Assembly: GCA_903893815.1 (NCBI GenBank)
Contig: CAITNS010000057.1
Span: 1-50,276, forward strand
Reading direction: 5' to 3'
Source of the DNA: an uncultured Bacteroidota bacterium
Lineage (GTDB): Bacteria > Bacteroidota > Bacteroidia > B-17B0 > Aurantibacillaceae
DNA: 50,276 nt
Of this stretch, positions 24,597-42,237 are shown in pieces. The position numbers and the translations under genes were made by a program. Position 1 is the first letter of the stretch; every line of letters starts with the position of its first letter. The notes below the pieces were generated by a model that saw only the letters and a program-made list of their open reading frames with translations, was not told the origin of the DNA and ran no database searches.

Positions 24597-24711
24597 ACGA
24601 CAAGCTTGTCAACACAGTAAATTTTAATTGATTTTAAGCAATTTTGTGTCATAATAATTAAAACTCAAAACCCATGAAAAAATATCATTCTCAAAAGTAG
24701 CAGTCATTTCG
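24597..24711 (+). pseudogene. Promoter and 5' remnant of a DUF6717 gene (inverted duplicate of 38250-38363)
   Basis: The palindrome GACAAGCTTGTC (24599-24610), a -7-like CAATTTTG (24639-24646), GTGTCATAATA and then ATG at 24674 with MKKYHSQK followed by a stop. The same ordered elements, on the opposite strand, form the promoter and start of the intact gene ending at 37948. Compared with that gene, this copy has a one-base deletion after the fifth codon and a stop after eight codons, so it is a broken 5' fragment. Homology fades about 35 nt after the ATG. Confidence 0.75.
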
Positions 24712-24875
24712 TAATTTAAAGTTAGCAAATAACCTAACCAATTTTGATAATTACTTTGATTCTTTTTAAAAATTCAGAATGAAGTTCCAAAAATTGGCAA
24801 AAAAAGGAATTTAAAATTTAAACATTCAAATGCATATATTTATTTAATTCAAAAACAACCTACTTGATAAGACCT

Positions 24876-25778
24876 ATGATTAATAGAAACAATATAGAAA
24901 TAGTAAAATTTATGATTCCAGCTGTAATTGATTGCTGCAGAGATGATGGCAATAATTTACTAGCAGGATCGAATTATTTTCTAAATGCAAGGACAAGTGA
25001 TAACAAAAAAATAGGAACAGTAAAACCATCTGTTTTTTCTATTAATGAAATTGAAAAATTACTTACTAAATTAAATATTTTTATTTCTTTGAATGATGTT
25101 ATTTCAGGTGCTTTTATTAATTCTGAAATTTTAAAAATTAGAGGTATAGATGAAAAACAATTTATCTTAAATGTTTTAAAATTAGCATTGAAAAATCCAA
25201 AATTAACAATCGAGACTGATTCAATTATTAGGAGCGATGAATACTTGCTTAAATATTCTGAAAGATTAACATTAGAAGATATCCAAATGTTTTGGAAAAC
25301 AATGTTGGATTATGAAATATTATATTTAATACATGGCATTAAGGACCTTGGGTTTGGCGAATGGAATAATTTTGGTATTGGTATATACAATAAATTAGCA
25401 ACGACAGATAACAAGTCGCCCATTTTCAATGAGGTTAACAAAATTTTAACTTATATTTTATTTCCTCATGATTTGATTTATCCAAATACTATTAAGGATG
25501 AAAGCAAATTTAGAATTAACTTCGCAAATGATATTTTAGAAATAAAATATATTGATCTTGATTCAACTCGCTTTGATAGCCTTAAGCAATTACTCGATTA
25601 TTTATATAAAACATACCTATACAAAATTTTACCAAAATTCTCTTATGAAAAAAATTGGGTTCTCGAGCATGATGGTTGTTTTATAAGAAAAGATTTTAAT
25701 AATAAAGCACTAAGTTTAATTGACTTAGGTATTGAAGACGGTACAGAATTAAATTTATTTAAATTAATTAAATTATAA
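24876..25778 (+). CDS. Unknown protein with ubiquitin-like (beta-grasp) C-terminus
   Basis: The 300-residue protein starts at ATG 24876 (a TTG four codons earlier is possible). I do not recognise the N-terminal ~210 residues, which are Ile/Lys/Asn-rich and mainly helical (LEDIQMFWKTMLDYEILYLI). The last ~80 residues look like a beta-grasp fold: strand DILEIKYIDLD, helix FDSLKQLLDYLYKTYL, WVLEHDGCFIRKD, and the closing ALSLIDLGIEDGTELNLFKL. The pattern LxDLGIxDGTxLxL is typical of YukD/ubiquitin-like domains. There is no terminal Gly-Gly, so conjugation is not indicated. It lies 171 nt upstream of the DUF3127-ATPase pair and is probably transcribed separately. Confidence 0.7.
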   Translation: MINRNNIEIVKFMIPAVIDCCRDDGNNLLAGSNYFLNARTSDNKKIGTVKPSVFSINEIEKLLTKLNIFISLNDVISGAFINSEILKIRGIDEKQFILNVLKLALKNPKLTIETDSIIRSDEYLLKYSERLTLEDIQMFWKTMLDYEILYLIHGIKDLGFGEWNNFGIGIYNKLATTDNKSPIFNEVNKILTYILFPHDLIYPNTIKDESKFRINFANDILEIKYIDLDSTRFDSLKQLLDYLYKTYLYKILPKFSYEKNWVLEHDGCFIRKDFNNKALSLIDLGIEDGTELNLFKLIKL

Positions 25779-26338: not shown

Positions 26339-28165
26339 ATGAAAATATCAATAAAAGGAATAAAATCTTTAAAGGATTACTCTAAAGAAATTGAAATTAA
26401 CAAAATGTCAATTATAACCGGAAAGAATTCATCCGGTAAATCATCTTTCACTTTAGGATTAAGACTCCTAAGTGATAATTTAAAGTATGGTTCCTTTAAA
26501 AGACTGTTGGATTTAATGGAATTAAATTTTAATCCAAAAGTGTTAGGTAAAACTATTTCACTAAACGATATTTCAAATAAAAACGAGCTTCAATATAAGA
26601 TAGAATTGCAGGATGAATCTAATTTATCAATTGAATTTATCTACAAAATCGAGGGCGACATATTTCAACTTTGTTCTCTCATTTGTTACCATAAAAATTT
26701 ACCAGTAATTATAAAAAGAAGAAATCAAAAAAAACACAAAATGGACGAAACCTTCTCCATTCAAGTTTTAGCAGGAAATATAGAAAAACAATACTTTGAA
26801 ATTATTCATCTCGGAATAGAAATTTACAAAAATCTGTCTAATGATAAACAATTTAAGGCAGTTTGCGATGAGTTTGAAAATACTTCTGAGGTAAAGCTCC
26901 ATCAGCACACCAATATGGAATTTATAATTGAAGCGCTTGAGATTGAAAATAAATACATGGCGTATTTTGAAAGTAAAATAGGAAGGGAATTATTGCTAAT
27001 TATAGCAAAACATGTAAAAAATAAAAATACATCTAAAATAAAATATTTATTAAAAAATGGTTTAATAAATCATGAGTACATTAATTCAATCGAGAAAAAA
27101 GAAGTATCTGATTTGATTAAAAAACTTAATTTCATTTATATTACAAAAGATATTAATCCTTTATTATCATTCACAGCAAATTCCATTAATTCTGAAGCAG
27201 AAGCGATACAACACGATATGAACTCAAGGATTGCAAGTTTAAAAGATGAATATGAGTTAAGCGATGCTGTAAAAGAGTATTTAATTAAAAACGAAAATGC
27301 AAAAGAAACAGATTATAATGATATAATGGAAAGTTATAGTCATAACCATTTCATGACTGAAATCGGTAAAATGTCACCGAATTTAGCTATATCAAGTATT
27401 ATTAATGATTGGATTGATAAAATTTTTATTAACGCATTAAATGATATTGCCGACTTTAAATTTGACGATAATTTATTAAGGGAACAAAAAACGTTCTTTA
27501 TAGAAAATGAAAATAATGAACTTTACGATATTGCGAAGTACTTTTTTCCAATTCAAGGATATTTAGACAAATTTAATGACTTAATAACCAAAATAGGAAT
27601 TGGAAAAAAAATCACCTTTGAAAAACAACTACATGGTGCTGGCTACATGATATTTATTGAAAATTTAAAAAATATTAAAGTTAATTATGGAACATTAGGA
27701 TCTGGTCACTATTTTTTGTTAAGATTAATCCTTATAACATTTTATAAAGTATATAGAAGACATGATCATTACCGAGATAAATTCATAAAAACATTTATAG
27801 AAGAAGATGCTTTAGAATTTCCAATTACATTATTATTAAATGAGCCGGAAGTTCATTTACATCCAAGCCTTCAAACAAAATTATGTAATTTACTAGTTAT
27901 TCTCTCAAACAATTTCAAAATAAATTTCATCATAGAAACTCATTCTGAGTATTTAATTCGCGCACTGCAACTTGAAATAAAAAAGGGAAACATAAAAAAT
28001 AATGAATGCAGTTTGTATTATTTTGAAAATGATCCAGAAAGCGATACTCAAATAAAACAAATACGAATTGATCAAAGTGGCTTGTTAATAGACCAATTTG
28101 GAACAGGATTTTTAGATGAATCCCAAAAAATGATGGAAGAGTTATTCAAAACTAAATTAAATTAG
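26339..28165 (+). CDS. OLD/DUF3696-like AAA ATPase
   Basis: The 608-residue protein has Walker A GKNSSGKSS (residues 28-36), then ~460 residues of divergent helical insertion, Walker B LLLNEPEVHLHPS with NEPEVHLHP at 501-509, and a switch His in IETHSEYL (533-537). The C-terminus IDQFGTGFLDESQKMMEEL resembles DUF3696-type ATPases, in which a short tail follows the ABC-like core. No TOPRIM nuclease domain follows, unlike classical OLD proteins. Such ATPases are recurrent sensors in bacterial defence. It is preceded by DUF3127 on the same transcript and is related to the second ATPase at 40333. Confidence 0.88.
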   Translation: MKISIKGIKSLKDYSKEIEINKMSIITGKNSSGKSSFTLGLRLLSDNLKYGSFKRLLDLMELNFNPKVLGKTISLNDISNKNELQYKIELQDESNLSIEFIYKIEGDIFQLCSLICYHKNLPVIIKRRNQKKHKMDETFSIQVLAGNIEKQYFEIIHLGIEIYKNLSNDKQFKAVCDEFENTSEVKLHQHTNMEFIIEALEIENKYMAYFESKIGRELLLIIAKHVKNKNTSKIKYLLKNGLINHEYINSIEKKEVSDLIKKLNFIYITKDINPLLSFTANSINSEAEAIQHDMNSRIASLKDEYELSDAVKEYLIKNENAKETDYNDIMESYSHNHFMTEIGKMSPNLAISSIINDWIDKIFINALNDIADFKFDDNLLREQKTFFIENENNELYDIAKYFFPIQGYLDKFNDLITKIGIGKKITFEKQLHGAGYMIFIENLKNIKVNYGTLGSGHYFLLRLILITFYKVYRRHDHYRDKFIKTFIEEDALEFPITLLLNEPEVHLHPSLQTKLCNLLVILSNNFKINFIIETHSEYLIRALQLEIKKGNIKNNECSLYYFENDPESDTQIKQIRIDQSGLLIDQFGTGFLDESQKMMEELFKTKLN

Positions 28166-28272: not shown

Positions 28273-29424
28273 CTAACCGAATAGTGTAGGTTGATCAACT
28301 TGATTTGCCTTTAATATAAATTGATTTGTCCTGCCTTTTTTTACCGTTTGAACGTCCTCCATTTTCTGCAATAGAGTTGTTAGCTTTTTAGTTGTCCAAT
28401 CTAGTCCAGCCTTGTCAAGAATTTCTTTTGCTGAAAGCGGTCTTCCGTTAAAAACTTTTAATATTCTATCATTTATATTGTCAATAGAAACCGTTGGTTC
28501 TTGAAGTAAAGATGTTGAAGTTGATTGTTCAGAATAAACTGCGTTAGAGTTTTCAATTCCATTATAGTTAACAGCAATAGCACCTTTTTGAATTAGAAGA
28601 ATATTTGCGTTTTTTTCATTTAGCTCAGGCTTCCTTACATATATTTTCCTTCCTTTCCTAAGACCATCAATTACTCCTGACCATGTTCCACCTTTTTCGC
28701 TTGATTCAGCAACGAAAATTTCGTCTGCAAGTCCGTAAATGATAGGATTACGAGCCATTGCTAAACCAGCCGACCAAACAGCTTTTGGGTGGAATGTGCT
28801 TAAAACTAAAACGTCACCATCTACAATTTGCTTGTAGTAAGTTTTGAAACCTGAATTGAATGTTGTGATTCCTTGTGGAAGAACGATTATACTCTGACCT
28901 TTATATTTTATTGCTGAATCTAATGCTTGTTTGTCAACACCTTTTGCAAAACCACTAACCACTACCTTAAAATCTTTGCTTGCAAGTTTCGCAATATTAT
29001 CTGTGAACTCTAAAGACTTACCTTCTGCTGCTCTTGAACCAACAATTGCAATTGATTTTTCATGAAGTATTTGTTTGTTGCCTTTTACATACAATAGTGC
29101 TGGTGAATGAGCTGCTTTAAGATTTTGTTTTAAAGTCTTAGAATATTCGGGAGAAGTTATTGGTATTAGTTCATAACCTTGACTAAACAAGTTCTCAGCA
29201 AAAAAAGCATTATTAGGGAGTTCGGATTTTGCTTTTTGTAAATCTGAAATTTCCTTTGAATCAAGTTGGTATTTGCTACTCCAAACTGATTCAGACAAGT
29301 TAAAAAACTCCTCAATTGTTATCTTTTCATCATGAAAGAATTTCACAATTAGACTATTTATCTTTCCGTACCCCCATTTTGGTAAATGGGCTAATGATAT
29401 CCAATATGTTGCTTCGTTTTTCAT
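28273..29424 (-). CDS. DprA/Smf family protein in a RecQ-PRTase operon
   Basis: The 383-residue protein has a short helical N-terminus and a Rossmann-like DprA core: IAIVGSRAAEGKS (GSRAAEG at residues 129-135), VVVSGFAKGVDKQA (156-164), SIIVLPQGITTF, and FVAESSEKGGTWSGV. A C-terminal winged helix follows (RPLSAKEILDKAGLDWTTKK). DprA loads RecA on single-stranded DNA during natural transformation; members linked to phosphoribosyltransferases and helicases may instead sense DNA or nucleotides. The start overlaps the stop of the upstream PRTase gene by 4 nt (ATGA). Probably a specialised paralogue, not the housekeeping DprA. Confidence 0.9.
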   Translation of the reverse strand: MKNEATYWISLAHLPKWGYGKINSLIVKFFHDEKITIEEFFNLSESVWSSKYQLDSKEISDLQKAKSELPNNAFFAENLFSQGYELIPITSPEYSKTLKQNLKAAHSPALLYVKGNKQILHEKSIAIVGSRAAEGKSLEFTDNIAKLASKDFKVVVSGFAKGVDKQALDSAIKYKGQSIIVLPQGITTFNSGFKTYYKQIVDGDVLVLSTFHPKAVWSAGLAMARNPIIYGLADEIFVAESSEKGGTWSGVIDGLRKGRKIYVRKPELNEKNANILLIQKGAIAVNYNGIENSNAVYSEQSTSTSLLQEPTVSIDNINDRILKVFNGRPLSAKEILDKAGLDWTTKKLTTLLQKMEDVQTVKKGRTNQFILKANQVDQPTLFG

Positions 29425-31019
29425 CTTTTATTTCTTGTTTTAGTTATGCATAAAACTTTCACAGTATTTACCTTTCCTTGACTTAATAATTTTTTTGAAA
29501 TCGCATTTAAAGTATCTCCAGACCTATATAAATCATCAAAAATTAAAACATTCTTATTTTTATATCTGTCATCTGTAATTGAAATAGATCTATCTAAAAT
29601 TATATTCCTGTCTTCTTGATTGTTTAAGCTTTTGATTTGTTCCGTTGGTAATTTTATAACATAATTTAAATCTATTGGTATTTTAGTTAGCTCTCCTATT
29701 CTTTTAGCTACTTCGAAAACTGGTTGAAAAGGTCTTTCCAAGTTTGAAGGCGGTGCGGGAATTATTACATCAATATCAGAATAGGCTGATTTAATAACTT
29801 TTGAGCATTTTATCGCAATTTCTTCTATTGTACTTCTATCAAATTTGTATTTAAGTCGAAACAATAATTCTCCTAAATCTGTCCTTGTAGTTTCAAATTT
29901 TCCATCATCTAATAATGTACTTTTAATAGTATGAATATCTAGTGCAAATCCGCTTATTTCATTATTATTAATAGGGATCAACGTCTTTAATTTGACTTCT
30001 TGTTGCTTATGGTTATTCTTGATTTTTGAAGTTAAATTAAATAAATTATCACAAGAAAATTCATAGTCACCAAAAAATAAAATGTCATTTTCAATAAACT
30101 GATTATGTATAGAATCATTAGATATTGAATCTAATTTTAATGAATTAATATATTCTAATACATCAGTTGGCAAATAGTTAAACAAATCAATTTCTTCAAG
30201 GTCTGAAAGTCTGATTAATTTAAAATCTTCATAATGCCCATAATGCGTACTTTGTATGTATGGCTTTACTAACATATAATTCAAACTTATTTCTGTTAAA
30301 AAAGAAGGGTGTATTGGTTTAAAAATGTTGTTTTTATAATTAACAATGTATGATAACTCTTCTGCATATTCGAAATTATAGATTTCTATTAAGACTGTAT
30401 TTTTCAATGGAAAATCCCGAGACCAAATTTTCAAATTACCTCCTCCTGTAAAGTAATTGCCTTTTATTAATTCTAGATTATCTGTATTTATTCCAATTAA
30501 AAAATTAATTGTAAAATATTCTTGATTAAATATATCAAAATCTATTACCCCGATTTTTTGATCAAAATTAGAAATTGGCTTATTAATATTTGGTGCTAAC
30601 ACTTCACCTATTAAATAAATTATTTCATTTTTTAACAGTACATCTGTTAATTTAATCGATTGTGTAATGAAAGAGTGTTTTCTATTTTCAAAATCCTCTA
30701 TAAGACCATTATTAAGTAAGGGGTTCTTGAATTTATCGATTTGAGAATCGTCAGGATTAACAGAATATAAAAATTTGTCTTCTTGTATGTTATTGTATAT
30801 TATGAAAGAATTATCCCAAATGTTTTCAAAAATGATGTTTTGACTTTCTTTGTCAATAATCAGAAGTTTTGCTTTGAATCCTTTGTCTTTAAAAATGGTA
30901 ACATAGGTATTGTTTTGGTAAAAGGATTCCTGTCTGCTAAATTCATCTTTGAATTTAGCACTTAAAATTATCTCATTATACAATTCTGAGATTCTATGTG
31001 AACAAGTCCTTTGTCTCAT
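29421..31019 (-). CDS. Protein with C-terminal phosphoribosyltransferase domain, 532 aa
   Basis: The C-terminal ~150 residues are a type I phosphoribosyltransferase: DVIIPAPPSNLERPFQPVFE, and the PRPP-binding loop VLIFDDLYRSGDTL, with FDDLYRSGDT at residues 494-503. This resembles the ComF-type PRTase. The N-terminal ~380 residues are unrecognised; they are strand-rich, with repeated Phe/Ile/Asp patterns, and could be a sensor or ligand-binding region. The first base of its ATG is the last base of the RecQ-fusion gene, and it overlaps the dprA start by 4 nt, so the three genes are translationally coupled. Catalytic acceptor unknown. Confidence 0.85.
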   Translation of the reverse strand: MRQRTCSHRISELYNEIILSAKFKDEFSRQESFYQNNTYVTIFKDKGFKAKLLIIDKESQNIIFENIWDNSFIIYNNIQEDKFLYSVNPDDSQIDKFKNPLLNNGLIEDFENRKHSFITQSIKLTDVLLKNEIIYLIGEVLAPNINKPISNFDQKIGVIDFDIFNQEYFTINFLIGINTDNLELIKGNYFTGGGNLKIWSRDFPLKNTVLIEIYNFEYAEELSYIVNYKNNIFKPIHPSFLTEISLNYMLVKPYIQSTHYGHYEDFKLIRLSDLEEIDLFNYLPTDVLEYINSLKLDSISNDSIHNQFIENDILFFGDYEFSCDNLFNLTSKIKNNHKQQEVKLKTLIPINNNEISGFALDIHTIKSTLLDDGKFETTRTDLGELLFRLKYKFDRSTIEEIAIKCSKVIKSAYSDIDVIIPAPPSNLERPFQPVFEVAKRIGELTKIPIDLNYVIKLPTEQIKSLNNQEDRNIILDRSISITDDRYKNKNVLIFDDLYRSGDTLNAISKKLLSQGKVNTVKVLCITKTRNKR

Positions 31020-33037
31020 TATACTAAATCTCCTCCAACAGTTCTTGCGATAACAATTGGAGCAATTTTTATAACTCCAAAGGTAGTAAATAATTTCCCC
31101 AATTCTTTAATTGTAGCTCCGCTATCAAATATGTCATCTACGAGTAGAATGCTCTTTCCAGCTAAAATACTAGGATTGTTAAATGAAAATGCTCCGCTAA
31201 CATTATCAGATTTCAAATAACTATTTTCAAATACTTTTTGCTCCTTTGTTTGCCTTGTTTTTACAAGGTCATGCGTTATTGGAAAATTTAAAACTTGCGA
31301 GAGTTTTGTTGCAAAGTTTTTTACAAGGTCTCCCGAAGATGTTGGCGGAACGTAAGCGATAAAATCAAATTTTTCTTTACCAAATTTTTTACGATAAGCT
31401 TTCAAACATAGTTTTAGCAAAAAGTCTGGAAAATCTTCTTTTGTTTCGTATTTACTTCGGTGCAATGCAGCACCAACATTTGAAACTCCGTAGTAGCTTG
31501 CTGCTACTCCATTCACAATATTTGAACCTCTTGCTTCAACTTCAAGGTTTGGGAAATAATCTTCTCTGAAATCTTGAAGTTTCTGCATCCAATCTTCATT
31601 TGGTTTTACAGTAATTTTATTTAAGCCAGTATTGTCGCAATTTGTAAAATTATGAGTTGTTGAATCTCCAAGGAAATCGCATAAAAATTTCATTCTTGAT
31701 TGAGAAGTCTCTACATATTGAATCATTTGCTCCAAATCAGCTTTTTTAGTGTTTCGTAAGTCCTCAAAGGCTTTTGTGTTTAGTGCCGGTGCATTTGTTA
31801 TGTATTCAAATTTTTTGCTTCGTCCAACTGTAACTTCTCTAATAATTCCTTGTTCAACCAAATCTGATTTGATTACTCGTATTTGTGTCTGTTTCAGATT
31901 AGTTTTTCTCATTAATTCTCTTTCACCTAATAGCTCATTACGTATTGCATTGATTACCTTTTCATATTTTGAAATTGAAGGCCTTCCTCCTTCAATAAAA
32001 GCTTCAGGAAGTTTCTTGTCTTCAGGATTATAAAATAGAATGATGTTGGAAGGCTTTCCATCCCTGCCTGCTCTACCAATTTCTTGGTAATAATGAATTG
32101 GGCTTTGTGGAATTTGAGTATGAATAATGAATCTAATATCAGCCTTGTCGATACCCATGCCTAGAGCATTGGTTGATATTACACATTTCCATTTGTTGCT
32201 CATTAATCCATTTTCAATAGCAATTCTTGAATCAGTATCTAAGCCAGCATTATATCCAATAGTTGAAAGTTTAAGGTGTTCAAACCATTTCGAATAAATT
32301 TCAGTATCTACTCTTGTTCCAGTGTATAGTATTCCAGTACCTTCTAGTTTGCCTAAATACTGTCCAAGCCAAACTAGTTTTTCATCTTCCGATTTGACTT
32401 TCACAACATATAATTTGAAATTTTCCCGAAGTAAATTACCTCTTAACACTGAAATATTTCCTCCAATTTGAGAAGCCACATCAGTCTCCACTTTTTTTGT
32501 TGCTGTTGCAGTCGTTGCTAAAACTGGCAATCCAGTTGGAAGTAATTTTACAAGATTAATTATCCTCCTAAAAGCAGGTCTAAAATCATGACCCCAAACA
32601 GAAATACAATGAGCTTCATCAATAACTACCATTGATAAATTCATTTGTCTTGTTGCTTCTATCCATTCACTGTTTTCTTGTCTTTCAGGAGCTATGTATA
32701 ATATTTTGACCTTGCCACTTTTAGCGTCTTCAATTATTTGAGTATTTTCCTCTGGTGTTTGCTCACTGTTTATACATTTTGCGACAATTCCTAAACTATT
32801 TAATTTTTTCACTTGGTCTCTCATTAATGCAATAAGAGGTGAAAAAATAACGGTTGTCCCCTTAAATATAGTTGCAGGATATTGGAAACAAAGTGATTTC
32901 CCAAAACCAGTTTTCTCAATAAGCAAAACTCTTTCACCTTTTAAAATTCGGTCAATCGTTTCCCATTGGTCGTCATAAAAGCTGTCAAAACCAAATGTCT
33001 GTTTTAATTTACTTTCTTCTTCGGGTCTTGTCGTCAT
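31019..33037 (-). CDS. RecQ-type helicase fused to a phosphoribosyltransferase
   Basis: The 672-residue protein has SF2 helicase motifs: Walker A GFGKS (residues 44-48), DEAHCISVWGHDF (DEAH at 140-143), LATTATATKKVE, and motif VI YYQEIGRAGRDGKP. Residues ~440-480 contain FLCDFLGD and TNCDNTG, a degenerate version of the RecQ zinc site. The C-terminal ~200 residues replace the usual RQC/HRDC with a PRTase: FDFIAYVPPTSSGDLVKNFA and VDDIFDSGAT (633-642). First gene of the RecQ-PRTase / PRTase / DprA operon. Two PRTases in one operon suggest a shared small-molecule or nucleic-acid modification step; that is inference. Confidence 0.9.
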   Translation of the reverse strand: MTTRPEEESKLKQTFGFDSFYDDQWETIDRILKGERVLLIEKTGFGKSLCFQYPATIFKGTTVIFSPLIALMRDQVKKLNSLGIVAKCINSEQTPEENTQIIEDAKSGKVKILYIAPERQENSEWIEATRQMNLSMVVIDEAHCISVWGHDFRPAFRRIINLVKLLPTGLPVLATTATATKKVETDVASQIGGNISVLRGNLLRENFKLYVVKVKSEDEKLVWLGQYLGKLEGTGILYTGTRVDTEIYSKWFEHLKLSTIGYNAGLDTDSRIAIENGLMSNKWKCVISTNALGMGIDKADIRFIIHTQIPQSPIHYYQEIGRAGRDGKPSNIILFYNPEDKKLPEAFIEGGRPSISKYEKVINAIRNELLGERELMRKTNLKQTQIRVIKSDLVEQGIIREVTVGRSKKFEYITNAPALNTKAFEDLRNTKKADLEQMIQYVETSQSRMKFLCDFLGDSTTHNFTNCDNTGLNKITVKPNEDWMQKLQDFREDYFPNLEVEARGSNIVNGVAASYYGVSNVGAALHRSKYETKEDFPDFLLKLCLKAYRKKFGKEKFDFIAYVPPTSSGDLVKNFATKLSQVLNFPITHDLVKTRQTKEQKVFENSYLKSDNVSGAFSFNNPSILAGKSILLVDDIFDSGATIKELGKLFTTFGVIKIAPIVIARTVGGDLV

Positions 33038-33254: not shown

Positions 33255-33842
33255 TTATTTATGATACTCATAATGACCAATTATTTTATAAGCAAATAAA
33301 CAATCTTCTAATACTTGTCCTCTACCTATATTATGGATCATCATATAACGTTTACCATCTTGAGATTTCTTTTTTGATACTAGTCCAATATGTGTAGTGG
33401 CGCCGCCTAAATTCCAACATACAATATCACCCGGCAAATAATCATTTGGTTTTACTGTAATTATTTTTTCTTTTCCGTACTTGGCAAAAAATACCATTAA
33501 GTTTGGTACTCTCCGATGATCAATATTTTTGTCAGGATTTTTTAACCCCCAATTTTTTGGGTATTTATCAAAATTAGCTTTAATATCTTCATGAACTACT
33601 TTTTGTAAATCAATTCCTAATTTGCGATAAGTTCTAATTATCACATCAGTGCAAACTCCTTTGCCAGATGGAACATCTCCATTTGGATATTTTAATTGAA
33701 AATAGGTTGGGTCATATTTCACCTTTTGCTTTGTTATGTTAAAGGCAGAATCTGCTAACCTATTACCAAAATTAGATTGCCCAAAACTTATTTTAACAAA
33801 AAAAGTTAGAAATATGCCAAGTATAATTTTATTTATTTTCAT
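33255..33842 (-). CDS. DUF1287 protein, predicted cell-wall amidase/peptidase
   Basis: The 195-residue protein has a signal peptide (MKINKIILGIFLTFFVKISF). The mature chain matches DUF1287: KYDPTYFQLKYPNGDVPSGK, VCTDVIIRTYRKLGIDLQK with Cys 64, NPDKNIDHRRVPNLMVFFA, and GDIVCWNLGGATTHIGLV with His 151. DUF1287 is NlpC/P60-like, and Cys 64 and His 151 are the likely catalytic pair. Probably periplasmic, acting on peptidoglycan peptides. Last gene of an eight-gene minus-strand operon, 7 nt after the L,D-transpeptidase. Confidence 0.88.
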   Translation of the reverse strand: MKINKIILGIFLTFFVKISFGQSNFGNRLADSAFNITKQKVKYDPTYFQLKYPNGDVPSGKGVCTDVIIRTYRKLGIDLQKVVHEDIKANFDKYPKNWGLKNPDKNIDHRRVPNLMVFFAKYGKEKIITVKPNDYLPGDIVCWNLGGATTHIGLVSKKKSQDGKRYMMIHNIGRGQVLEDCLFAYKIIGHYEYHK

Positions 33843-33849
33843 TTATTTT

Positions 33850-34470
33850 TTAAATAATCCACATTAATATTTTCTTTTGTGAGGCTTTGATTTTTTTATC
33901 TAATACCAACATAGCCTTATTTGAAATTGCAGGGCAACCCCATCCTTCTAAAGTGCCATTAGGATAAATTTCATCATCTGTTACTTTATCCCAGCTATGA
34001 AAAACAATGTCTCTTTTAATGGCGTTACAATTTGTTGAATCTTGTCCGTGTAATAAATATTTGATTTTGATCCCAAAAATACTAACTCCTCGATCTCCAA
34101 TAATATATTTTCCAATAGATGAACAATGGCTTTTATCTATATTGCTAAATTTTGGGTTTTCTTTGGTTTTATCAGATTCCCAAGGAGCATTACCGCAACC
34201 ATGACTTACTAAGTAGCTTTCGCTAATTTGTTTTTGATTAAAATTCCAAACATAAAAACGTTTTAAACCAGAATGGCGATTAAGATCAATGAGTATAAAA
34301 AAATCAGTATTTAAATGATTTCTTTTGCAGTAATCTATTGCCTGAGTTACCTTCAAGTTGTATTGTTCAATAGGTATTTCTTTTGCGCTTTCAACTTTAT
34401 TTGTTGATGGATTACAAGCGATTAAAATACTTAGTGAAATCGCATAGAGTATTATTTTGATTGTTCTCAT
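33850..34470 (-). CDS. Murein L,D-transpeptidase-family lipoprotein
   Basis: The 206-residue protein has a lipoprotein signal (ISLSILIACN, Cys 19). The catalytic domain is the murein L,D-transpeptidase type: ILIDLNRHSGLKRFYVWN, SHGCGNAPWESD, KYIIGDRGVSIFGIKIKYLL, IVFHSWDKVTDDE with His 158, and EGWGCPAISNKAM with the nucleophile Cys 179. L,D-transpeptidases make 3-3 crosslinks or attach proteins to peptidoglycan. It starts 2 nt after the 3-TM protein gene and is 7 nt from the DUF1287 gene, so the cell-wall genes are in one unit. Confidence 0.9.
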   Translation of the reverse strand: MRTIKIILYAISLSILIACNPSTNKVESAKEIPIEQYNLKVTQAIDYCKRNHLNTDFFILIDLNRHSGLKRFYVWNFNQKQISESYLVSHGCGNAPWESDKTKENPKFSNIDKSHCSSIGKYIIGDRGVSIFGIKIKYLLHGQDSTNCNAIKRDIVFHSWDKVTDDEIYPNGTLEGWGCPAISNKAMLVLDKKIKASQKKILMWII

Positions 34471-34472
34471 TT

Positions 34473-34847
34473 TTAAAAATATCCTTTAAAATGTTTACAA
34501 ACAAAAACTCCTAAAACTATATAAATAACAAAGGGCACTGCAACACAAAGCCATACAGATGATTTATAATAATCACCGAAGTAATCTATAAAATCAACTG
34601 ATTTATCAAATAACCAATTGCAAAATTTTGTAAAGTTTTTACAACTTACAACAACAATTATGGATAACAAACTATAGGAGATTGAAAAAATTAATGCTAA
34701 ACTAAAAATATAATCTATCATTATGGCCCAAGTAAATGGAATGAGAAAATAATAAAGTATAATGTTTACTTCATTATATGTACGATGTGTTTTTTTTGCA
34801 ACCCACTCTAAAGATTGTTGCACTATGGAAAAGGTTAAATCTATCAT
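34473..34847 (-). CDS. Small membrane protein with three predicted segments
   Basis: The 124-residue protein has hydrophobic segments at about residues 27-46 (NIILYYFLIPFTWAIMIDYI), 46-68 (FSLALIFSISYSLLSIIVVV) and 97-118 (VWLCVAVPFVIYIVLGVFVC), with a short loop FTKFCNWLFDKSVDFIDYFG between the second and third. No family recognised. A holin-like or scaffold role next to the GH25 muramidase is possible, because holin and muramidase genes are often adjacent, but nothing else supports it. It is 3 nt after the GH25 gene. Confidence 0.75.
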   Translation of the reverse strand: MIDLTFSIVQQSLEWVAKKTHRTYNEVNIILYYFLIPFTWAIMIDYIFSLALIFSISYSLLSIIVVVSCKNFTKFCNWLFDKSVDFIDYFGDYYKSSVWLCVAVPFVIYIVLGVFVCKHFKGYF

Positions 34848-34850
34848 AAA

Positions 34851-35618
34851 TTATTGTATTAGGATATCATTTAAATCTAAGGAATCGCCATTAAAAACAT
34901 TAATATCAACGTATGCATTAATGCCTATCATTTTCCCTGTTTCGGTATATTGCCAAATGTTCCAATTTGTGTTTTTTATTTTATAATCGTTATTCCTGTA
35001 ATTTGCTATCCATAGTTTATTATTCGGAAATTGATCTATTAAATGATCCCGGTAAAAACTTAGATAGGAATAAATCATGATTTCCAGTTTTGTTTTTTGT
35101 TTAAATTCTAGAATAAAATCATTAATTACTTTTATTAAGCGAGTTTTTGATAAATTATGAGCTTTTTCTATATCTAAAACCGGAATTAAATCACCTTTTT
35201 CAAAAATGGAATTTTCTATAAAATAATCTGCTTGTTTTTTACCGCTTATGTAAGGACTTAAATAATGATAAGAACCTTTTTTAAATTGCGGATACTTTTT
35301 TAAATTTTCAATATTTCTGGCATAACTTTCATCGGTATCTAAGCGTCCAAATATATTGGCACAAGTTGACCTGCAATAAGCAAATTTAATTTTGTTGTTT
35401 TGAACAATTTTTTTCCAATTAATTTCTCCTTGCCACTTAGATACATCAATGCCAAGAATTCCGTTTTCGTATGAAGTTGGAATTTTAAGGTCAGATATTT
35501 TGTTTATGATTCCATGTTTATTTTTTATTTTTTTATTGTAATAAATTATAGATGTAATTGCGCCAACTATTATTATAGATAGTATAACTAATAATCTTCT
35601 TTTATTTTTCTTTGTCAT
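34851..35618 (-). CDS. GH25-family muramidase with N-terminal membrane anchor
   Basis: The 255-residue protein starts with a membrane anchor at about residues 9-26 (LLVILSIIIVGAITSIIYY). The catalytic domain is a GH25 lysozyme: GILGIDVSKWQGEINW with Asp 58, KFAYCRSTCANIFGRLDTD, KGSYHYLSPYISGKKQADYF, and LIPVLDIEKAHN with the D-x-E pair Asp 149 / Glu 151. GH25 enzymes cut the glycan strand of peptidoglycan. It is anchored rather than freely secreted, so it probably acts on the cell's own wall. Fifth gene of the operon. Confidence 0.92.
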   Translation of the reverse strand: MTKKNKRRLLVILSIIIVGAITSIIYYNKKIKNKHGIINKISDLKIPTSYENGILGIDVSKWQGEINWKKIVQNNKIKFAYCRSTCANIFGRLDTDESYARNIENLKKYPQFKKGSYHYLSPYISGKKQADYFIENSIFEKGDLIPVLDIEKAHNLSKTRLIKVINDFILEFKQKTKLEIMIYSYLSFYRDHLIDQFPNNKLWIANYRNNDYKIKNTNWNIWQYTETGKMIGINAYVDINVFNGDSLDLNDILIQ

Positions 35619-35628
35619 TTTAAAATTA

Positions 35629-36249
35629 TTAGTTTAAAAAAAGATTAACATAGCTTTGGTTGCTATAATAAAAAGTTTGGCAATAACTTGATTCTTGATT
35701 TTTAGAATATAAAAGTCTTTTGTAATGTCTTGTTTTTTGCTCATGCATAAAAACATTATGGTTTATTGGTTCTTCACCATTTATCCATGCAGGTATAGCT
35801 TCAAAATATTGCCTTAAATAATCTTTTGCTAAATTAAATCCTAATTCACTCGATTTCTCAAAGTCAATTTTCGCTAATTCGTATTTTTCCATTTGATACA
35901 AAACAACCCCTCTTCCAAAATAGTAGCTCTTTTCTTTATTATTATTATTTAATAAGTAATTGTAATCATCCAATGCTTTATCATAAATTTTAGCATCAGC
36001 ATATGCACAAGCCCTATTGCTATAATATAAATTTGTTGGATTTAATATGACGGCTTTGTTGAAATTCTCAATGGCTTTTTGATAGCATTTTAGCTTCATA
36101 TTTTGTAACCCTAAATTATTAAACTCTAATGCTTCGTTTTCTTTTTTTTCATCAGAGTTTGTTTCTTTTTGTTTCGAATAACTATGCAGAGCCTTGATAA
36201 ATAGAAAGATTAGTAAGTATAATATTTGTTGTTTTGAATGATTATCCAT
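35629..36249 (-). CDS. TPR-repeat protein
   Basis: The 206-residue protein has an N-terminal hydrophobic stretch (ILYLLIFLFIKALHSY) that may be a signal anchor, then a charged linker, then about three TPRs: EFNNLGLQNMKLKCYQKAIE, FNKAVILNPTNLYYSNRACA and KSYYFGRGVVLYQMEKYELA. TPRs mediate protein-protein contacts. The C-terminal ~60 residues are unassigned. It separates the vWA/Cys-rich pair from the cell-wall enzymes and could physically link them; this is inference. Confidence 0.85.
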   Translation of the reverse strand: MDNHSKQQILYLLIFLFIKALHSYSKQKETNSDEKKENEALEFNNLGLQNMKLKCYQKAIENFNKAVILNPTNLYYSNRACAYADAKIYDKALDDYNYLLNNNNKEKSYYFGRGVVLYQMEKYELAKIDFEKSSELGFNLAKDYLRQYFEAIPAWINGEEPINHNVFMHEQKTRHYKRLLYSKNQESSYCQTFYYSNQSYVNLFLN

Positions 36250-36269
36250 AACAATTTCACTAATAATTT

Positions 36270-37295
36270 TTAATAAGTTTTATCTTTTATTGAGTTGTAA
36301 TTGATTTTTCTCTTTTCACCTCTTTCTCCTGAAATGATATAGTTTACAGAGATTCGTTCCCCTAATTTTTTCACTATTTCAGCATTGATTTTTGAAATCT
36401 CTTCATGAATTCTCATAGAGTGAGGATCACAGATATTTTTAATTGTTGTACTTAGTTCCTCTGTTGTTTTATTGGGTTGAAAGGATTGGTAAAGCTTTAT
36501 TAATTTACCATCTGAGTCTAATAAATCGGCCATGGTATAGCCTTGTTTTGATTCAAGGAATAATTTATAAATTGCTTTTCGTAACGGAGAAAATTTTAAT
36601 TCAATATTACCATAATCTGTTAGGATAAACCTACCTTTCTGTGTGATTTCTAGTCTGCTCAATTTAGTTTCTAGTTGCAGTCTGTTTCTAAACAGCAATT
36701 GTTTTCTTAAACCTTCAAAAGCATCTAGTATCTGTCCAATAATTCTTCCATCAATATGTTTAGCATGAATATGTTCTAGACATTTATCGCAAATATCTGC
36801 TGTTCTAAGTTTTAATAAAATTTCTCTTTTATGAATACATAAATCCATATAGCATCCTAATGAACTATCTTTATGCATATGACTATACATCATATCATAA
36901 TTTTCATAAACAAAGGACTTTAAAATATTGGAATAGAGTAGGTAGGCATCAGGAAACTCATTGCCTGCATTTGTATATAAACCCCAATCAGCGCTATGGA
37001 TCATGAAATTTTTTAAACCATCACCATGAGTAAAGAAATTATTTGTTAATCGGGTGTTTGTATATAAGCAAACAAAATCTGTTTGAGCTATTTTGTGTGA
37101 CTTTCTAAAATCCGCTATATAAATCATAGCTTCGTCAGGATGAATACTTCCACTGGCAGAAATTGAGGTTGGAATGATATGCTTATGACTATTAAATGTT
37201 AAAGGACCATCATAAGCATTTAAAAGTTCCTCTATTTTTACAAGTGATTTTTCATTAAAATCTTCTGTTCTAACAAGCCAAACATTCATGCTCAA
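36270..37295 (-). CDS. Cys-cluster protein with conserved C-terminal domain, 341 aa
   Basis: The function is unknown. Residues ~25-150 contain ASGSIHPDEAMIYIADFRKS and FFTHGDGLKNFMIHSADWGL. A putative zinc site is made by the Cys pairs in GCYMDLCIHKREILLKLRTA and DICDKCLEHI. The C-terminal part (FSPLRKAIYKLFLESKQGYT, then NKTTEELSTTIKNICDPHSM and HEEISKINAEIVKKLGERI) resembles a domain common in Bacteroidota signalling or conflict proteins, ending in a short basic tail. Directly follows the vWA gene (6 nt). I could not match the N-terminal region to a named family. Confidence 0.75.
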   Translation of the reverse strand: MSMNVWLVRTEDFNEKSLVKIEELLNAYDGPLTFNSHKHIIPTSISASGSIHPDEAMIYIADFRKSHKIAQTDFVCLYTNTRLTNNFFTHGDGLKNFMIHSADWGLYTNAGNEFPDAYLLYSNILKSFVYENYDMMYSHMHKDSSLGCYMDLCIHKREILLKLRTADICDKCLEHIHAKHIDGRIIGQILDAFEGLRKQLLFRNRLQLETKLSRLEITQKGRFILTDYGNIELKFSPLRKAIYKLFLESKQGYTMADLLDSDGKLIKLYQSFQPNKTTEELSTTIKNICDPHSMRIHEEISKINAEIVKKLGERISVNYIISGERGEKRKINYNSIKDKTY

Positions 37296-37301
37296 TTTTT
37301 T

Positions 37302-37910
37302 TTAATTTTTAAATTTATTCCAGTCCATTTCGTTTTTTGCAAGTCCAGTTAAACTATTTCCCATTTTTTTAAAAACAGAATTCATATCTTTTTTATAAAA
37401 TGAATGAGCATGCTCTTCTTTAATATTCATTTTTGTGGCTACATTCTTAGCATCAATTATAGCACCTAAAAACATAAAAATGTAACCTTCATTTTGCATT
37501 TCGAGAATTAATTTACGAATGTTTTCGAAATTAAACAAAAGCGACCTGTTTTCATGTCCGTCTGTAATAATAACAAATACAACTTTCTTTTCTCCTTTTT
37601 TTACGGAGCTTGATGAGTTTAGTCTTTCGGCAGAGGCAATAGTTCCAATGGCATCATACAATGAGGTATTACCACTTGGACAAAAATCGTTTAAATTTAA
37701 TTTGGGCAAATTCATAGGAGTTTGCTGATTTATCATTGTCCTTAAATAATCGTTAAAAAAATGAAGTGATGCTTTAAACTCTTGCTTTTTTTCTTCAATA
37801 GCTAAGTTTTGAATTGTAGCAAATTGTTCGTTTATACAGTTTACTGTAATTTTTTGACAGTCGGACATGGATCCGCTTTGGTCAATGATATAATGATATT
37901 GATTTTTCAT
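37302..37910 (-). CDS. vWA-domain protein, TerY-like
   Basis: The 202-residue protein is almost entirely a von Willebrand A domain. The MIDAS metal site can be placed: D-x-S-x-S in IIDQSGSMSDCQ (Asp 10, Ser 12, Ser 14), Thr 82 in GNTSLYDAI, and Asp 117 in VIITDGHEN. Such cytosolic vWA proteins resemble TerY of tellurite-type stress systems, which often travel with kinase/phosphatase and TPR genes. No signal peptide. Second gene of the operon, 37 nt after DUF6717. Confidence 0.9.
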   Translation of the reverse strand: MKNQYHYIIDQSGSMSDCQKITVNCINEQFATIQNLAIEEKKQEFKASLHFFNDYLRTMINQQTPMNLPKLNLNDFCPSGNTSLYDAIGTIASAERLNSSSSVKKGEKKVVFVIITDGHENRSLLFNFENIRKLILEMQNEGYIFMFLGAIIDAKNVATKMNIKEEHAHSFYKKDMNSVFKKMGNSLTGLAKNEMDWNKFKN

Positions 37911-37947
37911 TTTTTAAATTTTAAGTTTTATTTTTTTAATTTTATTT

Positions 37948-38286
37948 TTAATTACACACTTTAATGTATAGTTCCTTTGGCATTCTACCTAAATAAACAT
38001 AACGCGTAACATTGCAGAGCCACATTTTTTTTGGAAAACCTTGCGGACCTTCAATTTTATAATTACCACCATTTGTTAATTTGTTGGGAGTAATGAGTGA
38101 TACCTTTAAGGAATTATCTTGTGGCGTTTCATAAACTTTTATTTTAACGTAATTACTTTGATGTGATAATTTGTCTAATAGTCTATCAGCGCCCTGAACC
38201 ATTTCTAAGGCTGATTTAGGGCCTAACCAAAATTTTAGATTGATGTACCAGTTTCCTGCTTCTTTTGAGAATGATAATTTTTTCAT
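37948..38286 (-). CDS. DUF6717 protein, first gene of an eight-gene operon
   Basis: The 112-residue protein begins MKKLSFSKEAGNWYINLKFW and has KSALEMVQGADRLLDKLSHQ, then KKMWLCNVTRYVYLGRMPKE. I recall the pattern (W-Y-I-[DN]-L, LEMVxGADxxLD, KKMWLCxVT) as DUF6717, a small strand-rich family in Bacteroidota of unknown function. A promoter with -7-like CAATTTTG (minus strand, 38313-38320) and the palindrome GACAAGCTTGTC (38350-38361) lies upstream. A truncated duplicate of this start region lies at 24597-24711 on the other strand. Confidence 0.78.
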   Translation of the reverse strand: MKKLSFSKEAGNWYINLKFWLGPKSALEMVQGADRLLDKLSHQSNYVKIKVYETPQDNSLKVSLITPNKLTNGGNYKIEGPQGFPKKMWLCNVTRYVYLGRMPKELYIKVCN

Positions 38287-38363
38287 GTTTTTTTGTTTTA
38301 AATATTATGACACAAAATTGCAGTAAACCAGAAAATAATATACTATGTTGACAAGCTTGTCGT
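38250..38363 (-). repeat. Intact copy of inverted duplication, with operon promoter
   Basis: The minus strand contains the palindrome GACAAGCTTGTC, then CAATTTTG (-7-like), GTGTCATAATA and the DUF6717 start. All these elements recur in the same order on the plus strand at 24597-24711. Palindrome-to-(-7) spacing is 29 nt here and 28 nt in the other copy. Confidence 0.75.
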
Positions 38364-38529: not shown

Positions 38530-39305
38530 ATGAATTTTATTGAGCTACTAAATACTAAGCCGAATAGATATTTTTCCTTTGGAAATTATTTCAGTAGCCA
38601 AGAGGATACTGTTAGTATTTATCCTGATATGACTTTTGTAAATCATTTTTTGGTTGTGTCTGGGAAAAAAGGCAGCGGTGTGACACATTTAATCTGTGGG
38701 TTATGTAATACCTATGTTTATAGTAAGCGGAACTCTATATATATATTACAGCTCAATCCCTGCTTTATATTAGTTCATTATTAAAAACAGATAATGATTA
38801 TAATTTATTTTTTTATCATCTGTTACAACAAGAGTTAATTGTTATAGACAATCTTCAATATTGTTATAAAAAATCATCAAAGCATACTATTTTCTTGCTT
38901 CAAATTATTCATTATACTAAATTAAATAAAGTTCCTTTGGTGTTAGGCTGTAGCGATGATAAAAAAGATATTACTAAATCAAAGACTTTTATAAAAGGGC
39001 TTAAGATTAAACGTATTGATTTAAAGGAGAAATCAAGTTATGATATTTATGTTATCCTTAGTAACCTTTGTAGTTTAGAAGATCAAATTCCTAAAGCTTT
39101 GTTATATGCTATTTCTGCCTATAATGGTATGGTACAAGAACATATTAATTGTTTAATTTCTATTAGATTCAATCCATTACTAAAAATTATTTCACATAAA
39201 GCATTGTCAACAGAGGATTTCGATGAATTATTTAATATTAAATCATATTTTCCAACACAACAATTCAGAAAATGTTTTCCTCAAATGCAGTTTGATTTTC
39301 CATAG
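38530..39305 (+). pseudogene. DnaA/Hda-like AAA+ protein, frameshifted at a (TA)5 tract
   Basis: Two frames of one gene. The first (MNFIELLNTKPNRYFSFGNY) has a P-loop VVSGKKGSGVTHLICGL in which the Walker A Lys is Val. It is interrupted in TATATATATA (38736-38745). In the other frame the protein continues ITAQSLLYISSLLKTD and ELIVIDNLQYCY (Walker B-like), then VPLVLGCSDDKKDITKS, ending in CFPQMQFDFP. Removing one TA unit would fuse the parts into about 258 residues. Order and motifs follow the DnaA/Hda ATPase core, without a DnaA domain IV. Either a decayed ATPase or a contingency (phase-variable) gene. Confidence 0.7.
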
Positions 39306-40332: not shown

Positions 40333-42237
40333 ATGAAAAGCATTTCAGTAAAAGGATATAAAGCAATTAACAAGGAAAAAAAAATTACACTGGCACCAAT
40401 TAATTTAATTATCGGTCCAAATGGCTCTGGGAAGAGTACATTAATTAATTCACTTATTCTAAGTAAAGGTTTTTTTAAAAGAGAGATTAGTGAATTTGGT
40501 AATTTTATAAGTTCACAAACTAAAAATGACAAGTATGATCCAGAAGATATATATACAAAAAGCCAATATGAATTAGCTTTTATGCCTAGGTTAATTAATC
40601 CATATGATAGTGTAGGTAAATTTAAAAAGGCTGATATTAATTATAATTCTAAGAAAAAAGAGTTTTCAATTTCTCTTCCTGTTGACCTGAGACATTTTAG
40701 TGATTTATTTCAAATTGAATTAACGTATTTTATTGAAAAAAATAATAATGCTCTTGTAAAAGGTCTAAAATTGATAAATGAAAGTAATAATTCAATTCTC
40801 TTTTCTGCTGAAATTACTAGTGATATAGTTAATAACTTATGCTCTTGTTTAATGAAAATTGATGTAGATTATTTAAATAATTTCATGAATGACCTTAAAA
40901 ATAAAAATAAAGAATTCAAACCTTTAACTGTCGAAGATTATAAATTTAAACCAGGAATAGATATTTCTTTTAAAGAAATGGCTGATATAGAAGATCAAGT
41001 CCATTCCGAGAATATAGAATTTAAAAGGAAGTTTTTTAAATCATTTAAACAGGAATTAAATTGCTCTTTAAATAATGTACAGGAATCTAATAATTCAAAT
41101 CCTAGTCATTTATTAAATTACTATAATAAAGTATCTAATCTTGATTTTTTTGATTATTCAAAGGAAGGTGACGCCTCTTTTAATATAAAAGACGACAAAG
41201 TATCTTATGATTTAGCAATGGATTTTGAGATTGAATGGATTAATATCATTAAAAATGGCTATGAATTTCAAATTGAAGCTTCTGGTTTTACTTCAATTTG
41301 TTTGAATAGTTGTTTAAATGGAGAATTTCCTTTTTACATTGATAAAGACATTATTAAAAATTCCGAAGCAAAAGTTAATTTATCACTTTTTAATATTAAC
41401 ATATCCAGTTCAAATAAAACTGATTTTATTTTTAATCAACTGTTATTTCGTAATCTCAATTATGCTTTGAAAAGATTAAATAAAGAAACAGAAGATCTTT
41501 TTTATATTCCACCAAATAGAAATCGGAACTACAAAATTAATAAGGACATGTCAGACCAAGATATTATCACATTGCTTATTGTTCGATTAAATAATATGCA
41601 ATATGAGGACAAATGGGCTAAACCCTTTGAGTATTTCGTGAATTATTGGTTAAGGGAATTCAATCTTAAAGACAAGGTTATTTTTAATTCAATTGAAGAT
41701 ATTATTTCATTATTTAATACAGATTTTGAAACAGGTGGAAAATTTGATTTGGGTTATGGAATTAGTCAGTTGATCCCGTTAATCTGTTTATTTTCTCTTT
41801 TTAATGAGAAGTATAAAGTTTCATCTTTAGATCCAGCAATTAGTGACCAATACATACAAACGTGGGGTGCAAGTAATTGTTTTTTAATTGAGGAACCAGA
41901 AGCAAATTTACACCCAAGTTTTCAATCAAAGTTAGCAGATTTATTTATTGATGCTTCATGGAAATTTGGTCATCAGTTTATTATTGAAACTCACAGTGAA
42001 TATATGGTAAGAAAATTTCAATATTGGGTAGCAAAAGGGAAAATTAAACCCTCAGATGTAAATATTTACTATTTTGATAATAAAAACGAAGATCCGGAAA
42101 TTAAAGATTTAATTATAAAGAAAATATCAATTAACAAAGATGGTTCTCTATCTGAGCCTTTTGGTGAAGGTTTTTTTGATGAAGCCACCAATTGGCAATT
42201 TGAGTTATTAAAAATTAAAAACGCCCAAAACAACTAA
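40333..42237 (+). CDS. OLD/DUF3696-like AAA ATPase, second copy
   Basis: The 634-residue protein has Walker A GPNGSGKST (residues 28-36), a long divergent helical/coil insertion, Walker B CFLIEEPEANLHPS with EEPEANLHP at 520-528, and a switch His in IETHSEYM (552-556). The tail EPFGEGFFDEATNWQFELLK matches the tail of the ATPase at 26339. Identity is evident in motif order but low elsewhere, so the two are distant paralogues. It overlaps the downstream 346-aa gene by 1 nt (TAATG), a two-gene ATPase plus effector arrangement seen in several defence systems. Confidence 0.9.
   Translation: MKSISVKGYKAINKEKKITLAPINLIIGPNGSGKSTLINSLILSKGFFKREISEFGNFISSQTKNDKYDPEDIYTKSQYELAFMPRLINPYDSVGKFKKADINYNSKKKEFSISLPVDLRHFSDLFQIELTYFIEKNNNALVKGLKLINESNNSILFSAEITSDIVNNLCSCLMKIDVDYLNNFMNDLKNKNKEFKPLTVEDYKFKPGIDISFKEMADIEDQVHSENIEFKRKFFKSFKQELNCSLNNVQESNNSNPSHLLNYYNKVSNLDFFDYSKEGDASFNIKDDKVSYDLAMDFEIEWINIIKNGYEFQIEASGFTSICLNSCLNGEFPFYIDKDIIKNSEAKVNLSLFNINISSSNKTDFIFNQLLFRNLNYALKRLNKETEDLFYIPPNRNRNYKINKDMSDQDIITLLIVRLNNMQYEDKWAKPFEYFVNYWLREFNLKDKVIFNSIEDIISLFNTDFETGGKFDLGYGISQLIPLICLFSLFNEKYKVSSLDPAISDQYIQTWGASNCFLIEEPEANLHPSFQSKLADLFIDASWKFGHQFIIETHSEYMVRKFQYWVAKGKIKPSDVNIYYFDNKNEDPEIKDLIIKKISINKDGSLSEPFGEGFFDEATNWQFELLKIKNAQNN

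Follow-up and report, generated by a model that had tools for sequence, protein, structure and literature searches.

The DNA analysed here, hereafter the window, is the whole 50,276-nucleotide (nt) contig CAITNS010000057.1 (C57) of an uncultured Aurantibacillaceae bacterium of the Bacteroidota, whose assembly GCA_903893815.1 comprises 3.69 Mb in 86 contigs. On its minus strand, at 33255-38286, lie eight co-directional open reading frames (ORFs) that probably form a self-contained, autoregulated envelope-remodelling operon, run by two of its own products that would activate the promoter from which they are expressed: a small von Willebrand factor A (vWA) protein and a cysteine-cluster (Cys-cluster) protein, labelled AmzR, in which a predicted dead archaemetzincin domain is followed by a predicted winged helix and which would most probably act as a transcription factor whose sensor is a pseudo-protease. 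Read from the promoter, the genes encode DUF6717, vWA, Cys-cluster, tetratricopeptide-repeat (TPR), GH25, three-transmembrane-segment (3-TM), YkuD_2 and DUF1287 proteins, a set and order already put forward, with the same coordinates and strand, in an original prediction made from the DNA letters alone. The complete set recurs, in unchanged order, in a second species of the genus (G014; the prefixes G, C and L denote genomes, contigs and locus stretches), where it is spread over two contig edges, one (C44) bearing DUF6717 and the other (C63) the seven remaining genes; these edges would adjoin in the chromosome. Because of this repetition the row can be regarded as beyond chance. The intergenic gaps, in coordinate order from DUF1287 to DUF6717, are 7, 2, 3, 10, 20, 12 and 37 nt, in agreement with the earlier values save that between the vWA and Cys-cluster genes, given as 6 nt, which becomes 12 nt because homologues favour the Cys-cluster start ATG 37289 over TTG 37295. 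The eight genes may share a single transcript, and the earlier claim of one promoter ahead of them is borne out by a single operator-bearing promoter before the operon. The features on which the regulatory proposal depends are as follows.

38350..38361, no strand assigned: predicted operator, palindrome GACAAGCTTGTC, an exact 12-mer whose centre is 69 bp before the DUF6717 start codon
38313..38316, minus strand: TTTG box, 35 nt downstream of the operator core
37948..38286, minus strand: DUF6717 protein, first gene; 112 amino acids (aa); Pfam PF20475, 6.9e-24
37302..37910, minus strand: vWA protein; 202 aa; Pfam PF00092 (VWA), 1.4e-6 (29.1 bits; cut-off 23.8)
36270..37289, minus strand: Cys-cluster protein (AmzR), predicted transcription factor; 339 aa; AlphaFold model and structural alignments
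36735..37289, minus strand: predicted pseudo-archaemetzincin domain, residues about 1-185; Cys4 site C146, C151, C167 and C170; HExxH absent
36303..36659, minus strand: predicted OmpR/PhoB-type winged helix; boundaries from an iterated hidden Markov model, and structural alignment

The Cys-cluster protein is named by no Pfam, NCBIfam or PHROG model, and a sequence search of solved structures returned no relative (best E-value 0.41), its reading being drawn from an AlphaFold model built from 24 aligned homologues (mean predicted local distance difference test score, pLDDT, 86.7). Foldseek gave weak metzincin matches only for this model, the best at E 0.009; with a second structural aligner, residues 1-180 of the predicted structure fit archaemetzincins best, the top four rows being 3lmc (Z 13.8), 2x7m (13.6), 3zvs (13.4) and 4axq (13.3), with 151-161 residues aligned at a root-mean-square deviation (rmsd) of 2.9-3.1, followed by venom metalloproteases at Z 11.5 and below. 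The archaemetzincin signature, as it stands in an excerpt of PMC3427221, is HEXXHXXGXXHCX4CXMX17CXXC. The window protein has the pattern C-x4-C-x15-C-x2-C, kept in 25 of the 28 homologues in which the region is complete (it is missing in L057, L060 and L068), and HExxH occurs in none of these 28, nor in the two partial rows omitted from both counts, L012 and one piece of L062, a locus whose Cys-cluster gene is interrupted by a stop. With respect to the archaemetzincin family M54, then, the predicted fold and the Cys4 site are common ground, and the Cys-cluster protein departs from it in lacking the catalytic HExxHxxGxxH, in showing no signal sequence and in being fused to a winged helix.

For the C-terminal model, all 50 rows listed by the second aligner are OmpR/PhoB-type DNA-binding domains (best SaeR, 4ixa, with Z 8.9, rmsd 2.8 and 100 residues aligned), and the best Foldseek row is AdeR, at E 0.23. 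The likeness to OmpR/PhoB response regulators is confined to this C-terminal fold, for the receiver domain is absent, its place being taken by the archaemetzincin-like N-terminal half, and no Pfam match rises above the cut-off. As a separate observation, the same winged helix also forms the C-terminus of other Bacteroidota proteins, 146-656 aa long, whose N-terminal parts differ (L015, L016, L074, L115, L116 and L118). In L074 the winged-helix protein adjoins a homologue of the 3-TM protein; the 3-TM relative (46%) of G150 stands next to another protein with this winged helix.

The vWA protein has an intact metal-ion-dependent adhesion site (MIDAS), whose residues D10, S12, S14, T82 and D117 do not vary over the 26 homologues aligned, and a sequence search of solved structures gave distant relatives only. 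Its earlier description as TerY-like stands insofar as TerY-type proteins share the single vWA domain with MIDAS; no TerY-specific model of Pfam or NCBIfam matches it, and a Pfam scan of 20 window proteins, extended to NCBIfam for the vWA protein, turned up no Ter/TerD family. In 25 of 27 testable loci the Cys-cluster gene has a vWA gene upstream of it in the same orientation, a count that excludes L048, L053 and L065, which begin at a contig edge. The two genes are directly adjacent in 21 of these pairs and separated by one or two small ORFs in the other four (L050, L051, L059 and L119), DUF6717 being among these in L050 and L119; the two loci without an upstream vWA gene are L066 and L069. 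L070-L075 are C-terminal relatives or fragments, and in L072 and L073 a vWA gene adjoins a winged-helix gene on the opposite strand. Close homologues of DUF6717 neighbour the pair in G056 and G009, and in G014 one occupies the edge of C44; the literature searched held no paper on this family.

Relatives of the Cys-cluster protein that extend beyond its C-terminal domain were found in 26 of 396 Bacteroidia genomes, a figure reached from 34 matching genomes by setting aside eight with weak or C-terminal-only matches (G037, G157, G191, G197, G214, G221, G406 and G407), and several of the 26 have the gene cut by a contig edge. Within the genus of the window the presence is patchy, at 3 of 20 genomes. 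A link between the pair and true M54 peptidases was considered and is not relied on, since it appears when genomes are counted (11 of 26 versus 44 of 370, p 2e-4) but not when genera are (4 of 13 versus 32 of 190, p 0.25); genuine M54 peptidase genes are near neighbours in G056, G009 and G014, and the genome of the window yielded none.

The case for autoregulation draws on the palindrome ahead of the operon, which came to light on aligning the promoters of the window, G014 and G009. Its 14-base form TGACAAGCTTGTCA is identical in G014, G009 and G056, the last of another family, and the window differs from it in one outer base. The exact core CAAGCTTG precedes the first gene in 19 of 24 pair operons (15 genera), and the five remaining promoters have GCAAGGTTGC or GCAACCTTGC at the same place; the wider pattern RCAASSTTGY is present in all 24 pair promoters versus one of 307 control genes in the same loci, the sole control match (L011 8297) bordering the G056 site, and shuffled promoters give a mean of 0.04 and a maximum of 1. 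In an earlier control with the eight-letter core alone, 13 of 371 genes carried it, of which 12 are first genes of the module or neighbours on its promoter region and one is unrelated (L060 3926). The operator test leaves out L048, L053, L059 and L065 (contig edge), L010 (contig edge; G014 is covered by L105), and L066 and L069, the loci without a vWA gene, where no core occurs in the 130 bp before the Cys-cluster start.

The position of the site is nearly constant. In 23 of the 24 promoters 58-70 bp separate its centre from the first start codon, and in one 123 bp, the start codon having been shifted downstream to fit homologues in nine of the 20 vWA-led promoters. A TTTG, ATTG or TTTC follows the site by 33-35 nt in all 24, and in 15 of the 19 promoters with the exact core a TTTG proper falls 29-35 nt from the site (mean after shuffling 0.8, maximum 5). 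We take this box to resemble the -7 element of Bacteroidota. The centre of the site is 37-39 nt upstream of the TTTG-like box, and outside offsets 33-36 no TTG position is common to more than 4 of the 19 promoters, so that conservation does not extend to a -33-like box. The DNA separating site from gene varies, by eye, from lineage to lineage, and for this reason the site looks selected and not merely inherited.

A mechanism that would accommodate these features is one in which the factor, as a dimer, binds the palindrome some 69 bp before the DUF6717 start codon and, seated just upstream of a weak promoter of which the TTTG box is the sole conserved part, most likely activates transcription. 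The dead protease domain with its Cys4 site would sense a signal, be it zinc, oxidation or a bound peptide, with zinc or oxidation of the Cys4 site as the leading candidate, and the vWA protein would gate the factor through its metal-dependent binding site. In an excerpt of PMC3427221, Cys4 oxidation figures as a speculative means of archaemetzincin control. Once on, the operon would supply a membrane-anchored muramidase, an L,D-transpeptidase lipoprotein and an amidase-like DUF1287 enzyme, which together may bring about controlled cutting and re-linking of the wall.

That the same pair instead represses from the palindrome, to be released by the signal or by the vWA protein, is the rival that survives best, and we regard it as unlikely without being far-fetched. 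The site and the promoter box do lie near one another, with an almost constant spacing, and palindromes in autoregulated operons are, as general knowledge has it, often repressor sites; on the other hand, OmpR-type domains commonly activate, and the site is centred 37-39 nt upstream of the TTTG-like box instead of over it. Activation is thus favoured over repression by the distance between site and box, and an activator-dependent promoter fits better because no -33-like box is conserved and the site does not cover the TTTG-like box.

The remaining five genes of the operon include those of the wall enzymes, which would be the cargo of this regulator.

35629..36249, minus strand: TPR protein; 206 aa; TPR_1, 1.8e-14; 65% identical homologue in G014
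34851..35618, minus strand: GH25 muramidase; PF01183 (Glyco_hydro_25), 3.5e-35; one N-terminal membrane segment, residues 9-27
34473..34847, minus strand: 3-TM protein; 124 aa; three hydrophobic segments; no Pfam family above the cut-off
33850..34470, minus strand: YkuD_2 L,D-transpeptidase, predicted lipoprotein; PF13645, 2.2e-30; lipobox LIAC
33255..33842, minus strand: DUF1287 protein; PF06940, 1.4e-67; signal-like N-terminus

Membrane and signal segments come from a simple hydropathy scan, at whose threshold the TPR, Cys-cluster, vWA and DUF6717 proteins have no hydrophobic segment. Three exported or anchored products belong to peptidoglycan-enzyme families (GH25, YkuD_2 and DUF1287), the DUF1287 family being grouped as NlpC/P60-like in an excerpt of PMC10318531. 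To assess how far such enzymes accompany the pair, 35 locus stretches, each 4 to 50 kb long, were clustered by BLAST, an approach that sees close relatives only and not other wall-enzyme families. Close GH25 and DUF1287 relatives stand beside the pair in G014 and G056, and YkuD_2 and TPR relatives in G014; among the 35 stretches, no close GH25, YkuD_2 or DUF1287 relative lies beside it outside the window, G014 and G056. The arrangement in G056 is its own, with DUF1287 downstream and with DUF5715 and GH25 divergent across the operator region. DUF1287 relatives were found in 12 of 60 relatives, and no pair gene is near in the four other DUF1287 loci read, of nine. The wall enzymes are, as far as gene neighbourhoods indicate, cargo of the regulator pair, and the two arrangements, independent at most twice over, argue for a functional link between regulator and wall enzymes because they occur in two families. 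The coupling of the vWA gene to wall enzymes that had been proposed is therefore found in the window, G014 and G056; for the wider family, as far as the 35 stretches and close relatives of these enzymes go, the two groups of genes are separate, which was named at the outset as what would speak against it.

The earlier suggestions of a lysis-type abortive module or of wall opening for a transport machine found no support. A phage-defence version, in which the vWA and Cys-cluster proteins sense infection and GH25 and the 3-TM protein lyse the cell in the manner of an endolysin and a holin, appears very improbable to us, even with a PsyrT-like helicase next door (PADLOC 1.2e-261), a GH25 protein that matches endolysin PHROGs and a patchy presence in 3 of 20 genomes of the genus. 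None of the eight proteins has a convincing PADLOC match, seven being unmatched and DUF6717 hitting only Cas8g at E 0.046, on which account the defence reading was rejected; an L,D-transpeptidase is generally held to cross-link and not to lyse, the G014 stretches read hold no PsyrT-like gene, and close relatives of these lytic genes are mostly missing from the neighbourhood of the pair. A role in assembly, as had also been proposed, suits the vWA and Cys-cluster proteins less well than that of a transcription-regulator pair. The reading of the pair as a vWA-type metal-insertion or assembly chaperone for the secreted enzymes, with a purely structural winged helix, is the least probable of all, for it can draw on vWA proteins such as NorD, which serve metal insertion together with MoxR ATPases, but leaves winged helix and promoter site unexplained, finds no MoxR-type ATPase in the scan of 20 window proteins and must contend with a pair that mostly occurs without close relatives of these enzymes.

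Several findings weigh against the proposal of an autoregulated envelope operon and temper the probability that we attach to it. Foldseek has no match at E <= 0.001 for either the full or the C-terminal model, the folds being assigned by the second aligner; the C-terminal model, built alone, is of moderate quality (pLDDT 79.3), and its Z of 8.9 is slightly above 7-8, the typical best of that tool for models with no clear match. The pattern RCAASSTTGY was defined after the five variants had been seen, the exact core accounting for 19 of 24 promoters. Close wall-enzyme relatives join the pair in three loci only, two of them from one genus. Lastly, in a class-wide scan the 14-letter form TKRCAAGCTTGYMA was present in 98 of 396 genomes, namely 11 of 26 pair genomes versus 87 of 370 others, and is not tied to the pair genome-wide (the site of the window fails this pattern at its outer base, and its genome, G000, is scored as a miss); the promoter site could belong to a different factor.

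Of the scanned sites, the first 30 were fetched: 27 fall within ORFs, and the intergenic three are the pair promoters of G056 and G219 and one other, in G310. Since the 14-letter form shows no genome-wide tie to the pair and the fetched sites lie mostly in ORFs, these data weakly suggest that the factor serves mainly its own operon. One possible additional target, judged by sequence, is a protein-deacetylation gene row in G015, where the site stands at the same spacing ahead of DUF6717-like, deacetylase-family and Sir2 genes (L232 3609-5845), the deacetylase being named by its likeness to a G056 gene that matches PF00850. A second site, in G014, stands by eye ahead of the decayed remains of a DUF6717-like sequence and of the same deacetylase gene. 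In L055 and L061 deacetylase genes are found opposite the pair, on the far side of its promoter, and the G056 operon includes such a gene as well; where close deacetylase genes are neighbours of the pair, they have the site. Close deacetylase genes occur in 4 of 26 pair genomes versus 3 of 370 others (p 4.5e-4, genomes being counted without regard to genus), and in G132, G271 and G143, genomes in which the pair was not found, the fetched stretches with the close deacetylase gene contain no core. Two further candidates were rejected as targets: the G005 site, which sits inside a long ORF, and the window palindrome at 24599-24610, which by eye belongs to an incomplete copy of the start of the DUF6717 gene and its promoter. 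That copy, at 24590-24700 on the plus strand and about 14 kb off, comprises promoter, operator and first DUF6717 codons, with the frame broken.

The nearest precedent for a regulator of this kind is CarG of Myxococcus xanthus, presented in excerpts of PMC3427221 and PMC8156234 as a proteolytically inactive archaemetzincin-like protein that acts in transcription with CarD, the product of a translationally coupled neighbour gene. The likeness lies in the inactive archaemetzincin-like protein working in transcription with a neighbour-gene partner; CarG retains a His-rich HQxxH segment, does not itself bind DNA and works via CarD, whereas the Cys-cluster protein lacks HExxH, has a predicted winged helix of its own and has a vWA gene as neighbour, and CarD did not turn up when 20 window proteins were scanned against Pfam. 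The principle of a dead archaemetzincin in transcription is known; the winged-helix fusion, the vWA partner and the operator were not met in the literature searched. If the proposal is true, a regulator architecture is added (pseudo-archaemetzincin, OmpR-type winged helix and vWA partner) together with its predicted site and promoter geometry, CarG is not an isolated case, and an uncharacterised envelope operon is tied to a defined switch. More tentatively, and with somewhat less than even confidence, the pair may represent a new class of one-component regulators across the Bacteroidia, in which a dead metalloprotease sensor and a metal-dependent vWA co-regulator form a self-contained cassette whose main target is its own promoter and whose cargo differs with the lineage (none, DUF6717, protein deacetylases or peptidoglycan enzymes).

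A phage origin was likewise rejected, the Cys-cluster protein having no match in the phage collection and none confirmed in viral contigs; on two Prevotellaceae plasmids it has partial, C-terminal matches only. Relatives of the vWA protein occur in 142 phage records, mostly of Streptomyces and Pseudomonas phages, and those of DUF6717 in 10, mostly of Cellulophaga phages, KM652554.1 and KC821609.1 being examples of such phage records; two phage neighbourhoods read gave no functional hint. As to the surroundings of the operon in the window, 28273-33037 holds a row made up of the PsyrT-like helicase-phosphoribosyltransferase gene, a phosphoribosyltransferase-like gene (sub-threshold, E 0.0043) and a DprA-like gene, and looks like a PsyrTA-type defence locus. 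ATPases of the AAA_15/AAA_21 type with a DUF3696 tail flank the region at 26339-28165 and 40333-42237, and a 304-aa protein at 24864-25778, with no Pfam match, has a C-terminal end that is ubiquitin-like by eye. Divergent from the operon, at 38530-39305, lies a DnaA-like ATPase gene whose frame is broken, and at the same position in G014 (L105 594-1367) stands its 257-aa homologue with an open frame.

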